Below are positions 1,350 to 43,018 of a DNA stretch of 43,018 nt, piece by piece. Where the stretch lies: the NCBI GenBank assembly GCA_019310525.1, contig JAFDEE010000030.1, positions 1 to 43,018 on the forward strand, given 5' to 3'. This DNA comes from Deltaproteobacteria bacterium. GTDB lineage: Bacteria > Desulfobacterota > DSM-4660 > Desulfatiglandales > HGW-15. Position numbers and translations under genes: made by a program. The notes under the pieces were generated by a model that searched no databases, was not told the DNA's origin, and saw only the letters and a program-made list of their open reading frames with translations. Each line of letters starts with the position of its first letter. The stretch's first letter is position 1.

Positions 1350-2603
1350 CTACGCATACCCTGCCTGGTTTTCATAAAGTAGGAGGGGAGACTCACCCCT
1401 GGTGATGACTTCTTCCCCGATGATGCATTCCCGGACACCTTCCAGGTTGGGGATTTCATACATGATGTCCAGCATGATGGACTCCAGGATGGCCCTGAGT
1501 CCCCGGGCCCCTGACTTCCGTTCAATGGCGGCCTTGGCAACCGCCAGGAGGGCCTCGTCGGTGAATTTCAGTTCAACACCCTCAAGTTCGAACAGCTTCT
1601 TGTACTGCTTGACCAGGGCGTTCTTGGGTTCAGTCAGGATCCTCACAAGGGCATCCAGGCTGAGGTGATTAAGGGAGGCCACAATGGGAATTCTCCCTAT
1701 GAATTCCGGGATCAACCCGAATTTGACCAGGTCTTCGGGTTGGACCATCGACATGATCTCGTCCGTGTCGTTGTCCTTCTGTTTTAACTGGATATCGGCC
1801 TCGAATCCCATGGATTTGCTTCCGATTCGGCTTCGAATGATCCTGTCGAGACCGTTGAAAGTCCCCCCGCAGATAAAGAGGATATTGTTGGTGTTTACCT
1901 TTACGAAATCCTGCTGGGGGTGCTTCCGACCGCCCTTGGGAGGAATGCTCGCCATGGTGCCCTCTATGATCTTGAGAAGGGCCTGCTGAACGCCTTCACC
2001 TGATACGTCTCTGGTAATGGAAGGGCTGTCGGATTTCCGGGCTATCTTGTCGATCTCATCGATATACACGATACCCTTGCTGGCCGCTTCGACATCGTAG
2101 TCGGCCATCTGGACGAGGTTCAGGATGATGTTCTCAACATCCTCTCCCACGTAACCGGCCTCCGTAAGGGTGGTTGCATCGGCGATGGTAAAAGGCACCT
2201 TCAGGATCCTTGCGAGGGTCTGGGCCAGAAGTGTCTTTCCTGAACCAGTCGGACCGATGAGGAGAATATTGCTCTTTTGGATCTCTACACCTTCCATGTC
2301 CACCTTGGTGCCGATCCGCTTGTAATGGTTGTGCACCGCCACGGAGAGGATTTTCTTGGGTCGTTCCTGCTCGATGACATACTGGTCCAGGATTTCCTTT
2401 ATCTCTTTCGGTTTGATGAGTTGTCCGTCGAACTCGCCCTGTGGTTCTTCGCCGTACTCCTCAGCAATGATTTCATTGCAAAGCTGGATGCACTCGTCGC
2501 AGATATAAACCGAAGGTCCGGCGATGAGTTTTTTCACTTCGTCCTGGCTTTTTCCACAAAAGGAGCACAGGAGATCACCATTCGAATCGTCTTTCCTGGG
2601 CAT
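1350..2603 (-). CDS. clpX: ATP-dependent Clp protease ATP-binding subunit ClpX
   Basis: ClpX is the hexameric AAA+ unfoldase that recognises tagged substrates and feeds them into ClpP. The 417-residue product is normal length for the family. The N-terminal zinc-binding domain has Cys13, Cys16, Cys35 and Cys38. Walker A GPTGSGKT lies near residue 117, Walker B is VYIDEIDKI, and the ClpP-docking IGF-type loop is represented by the EFIGRIP region. It lies 11 nt downstream of clpP and 3 nt upstream of lon, so co-transcription with both is expected. Nothing in the sequence departs from the family. Confidence 0.98.
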
Positions 2604-34757: not shown

Positions 34758-35255
34758 TCATCGGGACAAACCCGAGGTTTCAATGTCAATGATCTCTCCG
34801 CGGATCCCGTCCTCGACCGTCAGTATTCCTACGCTGTGGATACCCGTGAGGGCGTATCCCATGGCTGTGCCGGGATTGAAAAAGAGGGTTCCCCCTCTCA
34901 GATGGTTTACGCTCCGGTGAGAATGCCCGTATACGATGACATCCACCGCACCGAATTCTCCCCATATCCTTTCTTCGAGGTCTTCAGGAGCGCCCCAGCC
35001 GTGAATGAGGCCTATTTTCACCCCTTCCAGTTCCAGCACCTTCTTCGATGGGAGGGACTGCTTGATTTCGGGTGGATCCATGTTGCCGTGGACCCCATGA
35101 AACTCCCACTCGGACAGGAAAGAGACGATCTCCGGTGATACGAAATCACCGGCGTGAAGTATCACGTCCGCATCAGAGAAATAGCGTTCCAAGAGATGCC
35201 GAAAGGCATCGGTTACTTTTCGAAGGTGGGTATCGGAGATCACGCCGATCTTCAT
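34758..35255 (-). CDS. YfcE/MJ0936-family metallophosphodiesterase
   Basis: The 165-residue product starts MKIGVISDTHLRKVTD. The metallophosphoesterase motifs are SDTH, HAGDF, GNMD, IHGWG and YGHSH. Members hydrolyse phosphodiesters in vitro; the physiological substrate is unknown. I chose the ATG at 35255, with GAGGA upstream, over the longer frame from 35318, which would overlap the predicted promoter. It is the first gene of the six-gene run ending in the amidase. Confidence 0.9.
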   Translation of the reverse strand: MKIGVISDTHLRKVTDAFRHLLERYFSDADVILHAGDFVSPEIVSFLSEWEFHGVHGNMDPPEIKQSLPSKKVLELEGVKIGLIHGWGAPEDLEERIWGEFGAVDVIVYGHSHRSVNHLRGGTLFFNPGTAMGYALTGIHSVGILTVEDGIRGEIIDIETSGLSR

Positions 35256-35376: not shown

Positions 35377-35444
35377 GTGCGTGAATGGAGAGAGACATAA
35401 AAAACCGACCCTTTTCATTCCAAAGCTTCCCTGGAGAAATACCG

Positions 35445-35933
35445 ATGCCGATCTACGAATTTTATTGCCCAGATTGCAATAGGATCTTCAATTTCTTCTC
35501 TGCATCCGTCAATACGGAAGCGAGGCCCCTGTGTCCGAGGTGTGGGAAAAGGAGGCTGGAGCGCAGGATGTCGGTCTTCGCCACTCCGCGAAATCTCGGG
35601 GAAGAGGGAGAAGCTCCCCTGCCCGAGTTCGACGAAAAAAAGATGGAGCAGGCCTTGGAGCGCCTTGCCCTGGACGCGGAACGAATGGACGGGGATGATC
35701 CCCGTGAGGCCGCCCTGCTCATGCGAAAACTCACCGACATGACCGGCATGAGGCCCGGCCCCGGCATGGAGGAGGTCTTACGGCGCATGGAGGCCGGAGA
35801 AGACCCTGACGAGGTGGAGGCTGAGATGGGCGATATCCTCGAAGAAGAGGATCCCTTTGTACCTTCCAAAAAATCATCAGGCAGGGGATTGAAAACCCCG
35901 CCTAAGGTAGATGAGAAGCTCTATTTTCTCTGA
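35445..35933 (+). CDS. FmdB-family zinc-ribbon protein with acidic helical extension
   Basis: The 162-residue protein begins MPIYEFYCPDCNRIFNFF with Cys8/Cys11 and Cys30/Cys33 forming the zinc ribbon. A long acidic extension of about 110 residues follows (EFDEKKMEQALERLALDAER, then MEEVLRRMEAGEDPDEVEAE). This extension is different from that of the FmdB-type protein at 5801, so the two are paralogues only in the ribbon. GGAG lies nine bases before the ATG; the frame is open from 35385. Function is unknown. Confidence 0.85.
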   Translation: MPIYEFYCPDCNRIFNFFSASVNTEARPLCPRCGKRRLERRMSVFATPRNLGEEGEAPLPEFDEKKMEQALERLALDAERMDGDDPREAALLMRKLTDMTGMRPGPGMEEVLRRMEAGEDPDEVEAEMGDILEEEDPFVPSKKSSGRGLKTPPKVDEKLYFL

Positions 35934-36143: not shown

Positions 36144-36425
36144 GAGAGACCTTTGAAAAATGTTCAATTTTGTTCAAGGTCAAGGAAGACGAAAATTTTA
36201 ACCATCCCGCTTTAGAATGCCAAGCGGCAGAGGAGAGGCACCATACATTGAAGTATTTCGAGGATTAAAATTTGTCCGCGCGAAGCGACGACTCCCCACC
36301 CAACGGGCGGGTCCCCGGTTTGAGTCTGACGCAGCCTGTCCGCCGTTGTCTGGCGGACTTGTCACGCCGTAACCATAGCGAAGGCGGAAGATTGGGCAAA
36401 AGGGGGCGTTTTTCAAAGGTCTCTC
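36144..36425 (+). repeat. Foldback repeat copy C, GAGACCTTTGAAAAA-type ends
   Basis: This 282-bp element starts GAGAGACCTTTGAAAAATG and ends with its complement (one mismatch), a 19-bp terminal inverted repeat. Its core matches copies A, B and D (TTTTGTTCAAGGTCAAGGAA, ATACATTGAAGTATTTCGAG, AGATTGGGCAAAAGGG) although the ends are unlike those of A and B. Extra palindromes interrupt the core: CCGCTT/AAGCGG at 36207-36227 and GTCCGCC/GGCGGAC at 36338-36358. No target duplication is visible. Its right end forms the last part of the UPF0280 reading frame. Confidence 0.82.
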
Positions 36426-37118
36426 TCCCCATGGGGCCAAGGCATCGCCCATGACGGCCAGGCCGCCGATGATTCCTCCCATCTGAGCGGCCCACCGACC
36501 GACGTTTTCCAGGTCTTTCCTGTTCTTGATCCTGTTACATAGGGCCGTGGCCGCCCCGTCCGCCCTGGCGGCGGATTTAGACAGAACGCAGACCAGATCA
36601 GCGGCACCCAGGCTGAGAGAATGCCCGATGGTGGCCGAGGAGGAGCAGACCCCCATCGGCATCTGTTCTACAGGGATCTTCAACCCGAGCCTTTCGCTCA
36701 GCGCCGATTTCCCTGCAAAAACCGATACCGTCATCGGCTTTTTCATGTTCAGGTAGACATCCCCACCGTTTTCCACGATCACCTGCCGGGTGAACTCCCG
36801 AAGGCCCTCCGCCACGAACTGTGCCATGGCCCCGGCGACCGCCGCCATGGGTCCCACGCCGATATCATGTGTGGCCTCGATCATGGCCTTTACGATCGGC
36901 GGGGCGAGAGGGTCTTTCCGGAAGGGTTGAAGGGTGGAAAGAAAATCAGGATGCAGGGAGATGTAATGTTCGAGATGGTTCCTGTTTTTGAGGACGAGGT
37001 CCCTTGTCTCCTTCACCAACGGACGATCGGCGCATATCCAGAGATCCGTCTCTTTCACCGCCACCTGGAATGAATGAAGTCCCCGGGTCCCCACCTTCTT
37101 TCTGTATATGCGCTCCAT
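36198..37118 (-). CDS. UPF0280-family (ApbE-like fold) protein with repeat-derived C-terminus
   Basis: The core begins MERIYRKKVGTRGLHSFQVA and contains the family blocks IEATHDIGVGPMAAVAGAMA, VIVENGGDVYLNM and MGVCSSSATIGHSLSLGAAD. From memory, UPF0280 proteins are grouped with the ApbE-like fold; the function is unknown. The ATG at 37118 gives 306 residues, with AGAAGG upstream; the frame is open to 37190. Residues 1-231 end in MGDALAPWG, close to where family members usually finish. From residue 232 (ERPLKNAP) to the stop the frame runs through repeat copy C, adding 75 residues that encode only the repeat. Either the true end was lost when the element arrived, or the tail is tolerated. Confidence 0.83.
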   Translation of the reverse strand: MERIYRKKVGTRGLHSFQVAVKETDLWICADRPLVKETRDLVLKNRNHLEHYISLHPDFLSTLQPFRKDPLAPPIVKAMIEATHDIGVGPMAAVAGAMAQFVAEGLREFTRQVIVENGGDVYLNMKKPMTVSVFAGKSALSERLGLKIPVEQMPMGVCSSSATIGHSLSLGAADLVCVLSKSAARADGAATALCNRIKNRKDLENVGRWAAQMGGIIGGLAVMGDALAPWGERPLKNAPFCPIFRLRYGYGVTSPPDNGGQAASDSNRGPARWVGSRRFARTNFNPRNTSMYGASPLPLGILKRDG

Positions 37119-37622
37119 GCTTTGATGCCTTCTCTCCGAACGGGTCCATTCATTTACGTCTTCGCACCTTCCGCCTTGCATCTTCGGCAAACCTGGCGAT
37201 TGCTTAATCCGGGTTCAAGGCTCCCAGAAAAGTGCACCTATGGGAAATACATTGAGACCTTTGAAAAATGTTCAATTTTGTCCAAGGGTCAAGGAAGGCG
37301 AAAATTTTAACCGCAGGAATACATTGGAGTATTTCGAGGAATAAAATTTGAGTCTGACCTGTCTGCCGTGCCTGCCTGTCCCGTTGGAACGGCAGATAGG
37401 CCCGGCACAGGCAGGCGCAGAGATTGGGCAAAAGGGGGCGTTTTTCAAAGGTCTCACATTCTCCAATGCCGAAGGGCTTGCCTCCAATACCCAGATAATG
37501 GTATCAAACGGCGGATCCGAATTGGCCATCCACCAGGGTTTCCCCGGCCGGAGTCCTCCTTGATCCGGGAGAGGGCCCCACCTTCCCGACGATATCCCCT
37601 TGAAAGGAGCAAAAACAACGCG
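37119..37622. other. Divergent intergenic region holding repeat copy D
   Basis: The gap between the UPF0280 gene and the M24 peptidase gene is 504 bases. It holds copy D (37254-37455) with its flanking ACATT duplication. No clear promoter was found on either side. The frame extending the M24 gene upstream to 37368 runs through the repeat and is not used. Confidence 0.65.
37254..37455 (+). repeat. Foldback repeat copy D with target-site duplication
   Basis: This 202-bp element starts GAGACCTTTGAAAAATG and ends with its complement (one mismatch). ACATT flanks it on both sides (37249-37253 and 37456-37460), a likely 5-bp target-site duplication. The core matches copy C. Between GAGTCTGACC and AGAGATTGGGC it carries a nested palindrome, with GCCTGCCTGT (37370-37379) paired to ACAGGCAGGC (37407-37416) and CCGTT/AACGG inside. 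It has no coding capacity and no transposase. Confidence 0.85.
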
Positions 37623-42885: not shown

Positions 42886-43018
42886 TGAGAGACCTTTGAA
42901 AAACGCCTGACCCGCCCAATGGGGCGGAGCCTGCTTGTACGTTGCCCTCCGAGAGGCGGACTCAAACCGGGTATCCTTTCGAAAGGCGGGGAGTCCGCCG
43001 CGCGCGGAGCGATTTTAA
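42886..43018 (-). repeat. Foldback repeat copy E, partial (cut by window edge)
   Basis: GAGAGACCTTTGAAAAACG at 42886 matches the right-hand end of copy C in inverted orientation. The following sequence shares GACTCAAACCGGG, GGGGAGTC and CGCGCGGA with the complement of copy C before the window ends at ATTTTAA, the start of the conserved core. It contains its own GC-rich palindromes, different from those of C and D. The far end is outside the window. Confidence 0.72.

Follow-up and report, generated by a model that had tools for sequence, protein, structure and literature searches.

A MITE-like repeat forms the C-terminal end of a UPF0280 protein in a Desulfobacterota genome

The window analysed here is a stretch of 43,018 nucleotides from a Deltaproteobacteria bacterium (Desulfobacterota; Desulfatiglandales), comprising positions 1 to 43,018 of contig JAFDEE010000030.1 in assembly GCA_019310525.1. 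Towards its right end lies a gene for a UPF0280 protein, the 3′ part of which runs into a short, repeated element. The features of the locus, with the evidence for each, are as follows.

34758..35255, minus strand: phosphoesterase gene (Metallophos_2), the native next neighbour (Pfam PF12850; gene order in several relatives)
35429..35933, plus strand: FmdB-like zinc-ribbon gene (Zn_ribbon_8), the native convergent neighbour (Pfam PF09723; gene order in most relatives)
36146..36423, no strand assigned: copy 1 of the MITE-like element, 278 bp, terminal inverted repeat GAGACCTTTGAAAAA, no target duplication (TTAGA / TCTCC) (repeat search, copies read)
36198..36422, minus strand: repeat-derived tail, 74 codons (R233–G306) plus TAA (translation; absent from 38 homologues; element consensus open in the same frame; predicted disordered)
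36420..37118, minus strand: core of the UPF0280 / PRK04334 / COG2122 type, residues 1–233 (family match 2–232), ApbE-like fold (NF003323, 2o34, Foldseek)
37254..37455, no strand assigned: second copy of the element, with a perfect 5-bp target duplication, ACATT (repeat search, copies read)

The minus-strand frame from 37118 to 36198 is open on translation and encodes 306 amino acids. Residues 2–232 match the NCBIfam profile NF003323 (PRK04334, UPF0280) with an E value of 6e-82 and a score of 274.7 bits, above the cut-off of 271 bits, which places the protein in this family; the match reaches position 243 of the 250 in the profile. A Pfam search of the protein returned no model match. The closest solved structure is PDB 2o34 (DVU1097 of Desulfovibrio vulgaris; E value of 1e-36 by sequence), which is also ranked first by Foldseek, followed by ApbE flavin transferases.

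After the conserved W230-G231, the frame crosses into the element at E232 (position 36423), the codon of which straddles the boundary and takes its third base from the first base of the element. Codons 233–306 and the TAA stop (36198–36200) lie wholly within the element, and the resulting tail includes the segments NAPFCPIFR, WVGSR and NTSMYGASPLPLGILK. We compared this end with those of 38 homologues from relatives, read to the stop or to the contig end (one is truncated where its contig stops); the nearest are about 63% identical to the protein studied here. All 38 end 5–10 residues after W-G-x, whereas the present protein does not; a stop no more than about 10 residues past W-G-x is a regularity seen in these homologues and not a criterion of the profile. 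The commonest native end is WG(D/E)-(I/V)EL(V/I)xL, most often WGD-IELVxL*. The initial annotation had proposed that the C-terminal tail comes from the repeat, a proposal that would fail if repeat-free relatives carried the same tail; none of the 38 homologues does, and the proposal is borne out. Its further statement that the frame runs through the whole repeat arm needs correction: the tail spans about 226 of the 278 bp, leaving about 52 bp at the far end outside the frame. The C terminus of this protein is thus mobile-repeat sequence that replaces the last few native residues.

The element (GAGACC...GGTCTC) begins with GAGACCTTTGAAAAA and ends with TTTTTCAAAGGTCTC, and the two termini constitute an imperfect inverted repeat of 35 nt with 80% complementarity. 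At least 62 matching pieces were found in the same genome when 40 of the 387 first-look candidates were scored, and a pattern search with one element end, allowing up to 3 mismatches, returned 105 sites. We read 31 distinct complete copies, which range in size from 142 to 311 bp; the 5-bp target duplication is exact in 18 and matches at 4 of 5 bases in another 5 (23 of 31 in total), and appears to be shifted by one base in 2 more. Related copies occur in relatives of the same family and order. The element has the features of a MITE (terminal inverted repeats, short length, many copies, no transposase and, at the level of the family, a 5-bp target duplication). A search for the parent insertion sequence found no PF13701 and three DDE_Tnp_1 loci, of which none is bounded by matching ends on both sides; ‘MITE’ is therefore a label for the form of the element, the parent not being proven.

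Two further copies lie in the window. The second is situated between two divergent genes, the UPF0280 gene (start at 37118) and an M24 peptidase gene (37624), where it probably lies within the promoter region of each. The third (42887–43018) is a partial copy that starts close to the right edge of the window and is truncated by the contig end, where the repeat probably interrupted the assembly. The minus-strand transcript of copy 1 (36146–36423) is predicted to fold strongly (−92.5 kcal/mol; z = −2.9), such that the 3′ part of the UPF0280 mRNA, including the tail codons, could form a long hairpin.

We read 80 element ends of the same type inward in all three phases. One phase meets a stop after two codons. 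In the other two, the median open run is 36 and 37.5 codons, and 16 and 11 runs, respectively, reach at least 60 codons (27 over the 80 ends). Entry from this end thus meets open sequence in two of the three phases, and a long tail needs no special cause. A query-anchored consensus built from 106 pieces of other copies has the same frame and the same TAA, except for a 5-bp block that is present in copy 1 and in some other copies but is missing from most. Only one base of the tail, at position 51, is private to copy 1, and it is silent; the remaining differences are shared with a subset of copies. Judged by these comparisons, the tail is ordinary element sequence and, with about one private base, it gives no power to test for selection on the tail. 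Elsewhere in the genome, a 343-codon frame (positions 1465–2493, minus strand, of locus L116, contig C33; RPLKNVPFCPIFRLRRGYG...) enters another copy in the same phase; a Pfam search of this frame returned no match and it is possibly non-coding. Nine ORFs of at least 138 codons that enter element copies were considered as further fused genes, and none has a Pfam match that would mark it as a real gene.

Copy 1 differs from most of its family in its flanks, TTAGA and TCTCC, which match at 1 of 5 bases. The initial annotation had noted the missing target duplication, correctly, and had taken it as consistent with a deletion that removed the native end of the gene; absence of the duplication is indeed unusual for the family, and a deletion is plausible but not proven. 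The tail itself does not depend on a deletion: insertion alone would suffice, as the frame reaches the stop of the element before its far end. In most relatives, an FmdB-like zinc-ribbon gene lies directly downstream of, and convergent with, the UPF0280 gene, followed in several by a phosphoesterase gene, and the window carries both genes in the same order. Any loss must therefore have been small and local, as the native neighbouring gene is still there, and the evidence suggests that copy 1 underwent either a minor local deletion or a recombination event involving two direct copies. No large rearrangement is necessary with the native neighbour in place. In a search for the reciprocal partner of a recombination, with TCTCC or TTAGA flanks, two contigs (C18 and C22) matched the 5 bases but continue into unrelated genes.

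Two other accounts of the missing duplication deserve consideration. The element may simply have inserted, without any deletion, leaving the native end stranded beyond it while the target duplication decayed. On the minus strand just beyond the element, the sequence reads ..GTT GAA TAT TTC AAA TGA (VEYFK*); if 4 bases are removed, it continues the frame across the element as WGE-VEYFK*, which is somewhat similar to the native WGE-VELVRL*. However, VEYFK* has a weak score of 5.5, below every native end (10.1–15.4), with p about 0.08 against composition-matched shuffles and 0.007 against uncorrected genomic sequence, and the flanks share 1 of 5 bases although the element itself shows little private decay; we consider this account unlikely. 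A high-copy repeat could also have led the assembler to join unrelated flanks, which would likewise leave no duplication: the genome consists of 158 contigs with many repeat copies, and C18 opens with an element end next to TTAGA, the left-flank 5 bases of copy 1. Yet a random misjoin would not yield flanking genes that are convergent as in most relatives, and C18 runs on into oxidoreductase genes, which are absent from the neighbourhood of copy 1, so that its 5-base match is probably due to chance among many ends. As both flanking genes are natural neighbours, the element is at a native junction, which disfavours misassembly as well as large rearrangement, and an artefact of assembly is very improbable.

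The consequences for the protein were assessed with AlphaFold2 models, which were built from alignments of only ten rows and serve as a guide. In the model of a native-ended relative, the last strand is formed by residues 233–236, at the native end. The core of the tailed protein is modelled with confidence (about 74–96 in most blocks), its 233–236 stretch forms no strand, and tail residues 241–306 have pLDDT values of 22–34 and are predicted to be disordered. In these models, the last predicted β-strand of the family is replaced by a predicted disordered tail. The missing strand, together with the conservation of the C-terminal end in most homologues, is what would be expected of a recent pseudogene in which these changes have abolished function, and a loss of function that happened very recently would be indistinguishable from a working tailed protein. 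By contrast, the core frame is intact, has no internal stop and is 52–63% identical to same-family homologues. UPF0280, which we take to be COG2122, is present as a single copy according to a homologue search of the genome, which also retains two intact HcyBio (PF01837) genes. In D. vulgaris, genetic evidence indicates that COG2122 and DUF39 are both needed for homocysteine synthesis (PMC5764234). As the sole UPF0280 copy alongside retained partner genes for homocysteine, the tailed protein most likely still works, and we regard the pseudogene as the less probable outcome. That the tail is itself kept for the function of the protein (in partner binding or regulation), as a domesticated MITE-encoded C terminus, seems exceedingly unlikely.

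We propose the following course of events. A non-autonomous, MITE-like element would have inserted after the second base of the Glu or Asp codon that follows the conserved Trp-Gly, and translation would then read through 74 stop-free codons to the TAA of the element. The protein would thereby lose about six residues of its native end, usually IELVxL, which form the last predicted β-strand. A short stretch beside the element, probably containing the stranded native end, would most likely have been lost as well, by adjacent deletion or by recombination between two nearby copies; it is the missing far copy of the 5-bp target duplication that points to this local loss. The core would have stayed intact, and the protein, presumably still made, would retain its function with a disordered extra tail. 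We assign a probability of roughly 0.88 to this joint reading, comprising insertion, read-through, local loss beside the element, a retained core and a protein that most likely works.

The locus is a clean and large (74-residue) case in which a mobile repeat has rewritten the C terminus of a conserved bacterial protein that is probably important in metabolism. Because two of the three phases are open when this element family is entered from one end, many insertions close to a stop codon could append long tails. Within the family, DVU1097 (UPF0280 / DUF375) shares its fold with the core described here but ends shortly after WGDMEL, without a tail. In the ECA3499 amidase of Erwinia carotovora, the repeat RU-1 at the 3′ end eliminated the usual stop and extended the protein by about 35 residues (Delihas 2007, PMC2759123); in both cases, a small MITE-like repeat replaces the native stop of a conserved enzyme and supplies the last residues beyond its conserved domain. 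The repeat families are unrelated, however, the contribution is about 35 residues compared with 74 here, and the conserved domain of ECA3499 is complete, whereas the UPF0280 protein falls short of the last few conserved residues. In EnhC of Coxiella burnetii Dugway, QMITE2 supplies the last 33 residues (PMC5896051); there, too, a MITE gives C-terminal residues in frame, but the element is unrelated, the stretch is shorter and comparison with another strain is possible. Protein ends made by repeats have thus already been described, and the mechanism is not new; the UPF0280 case is the longer one.
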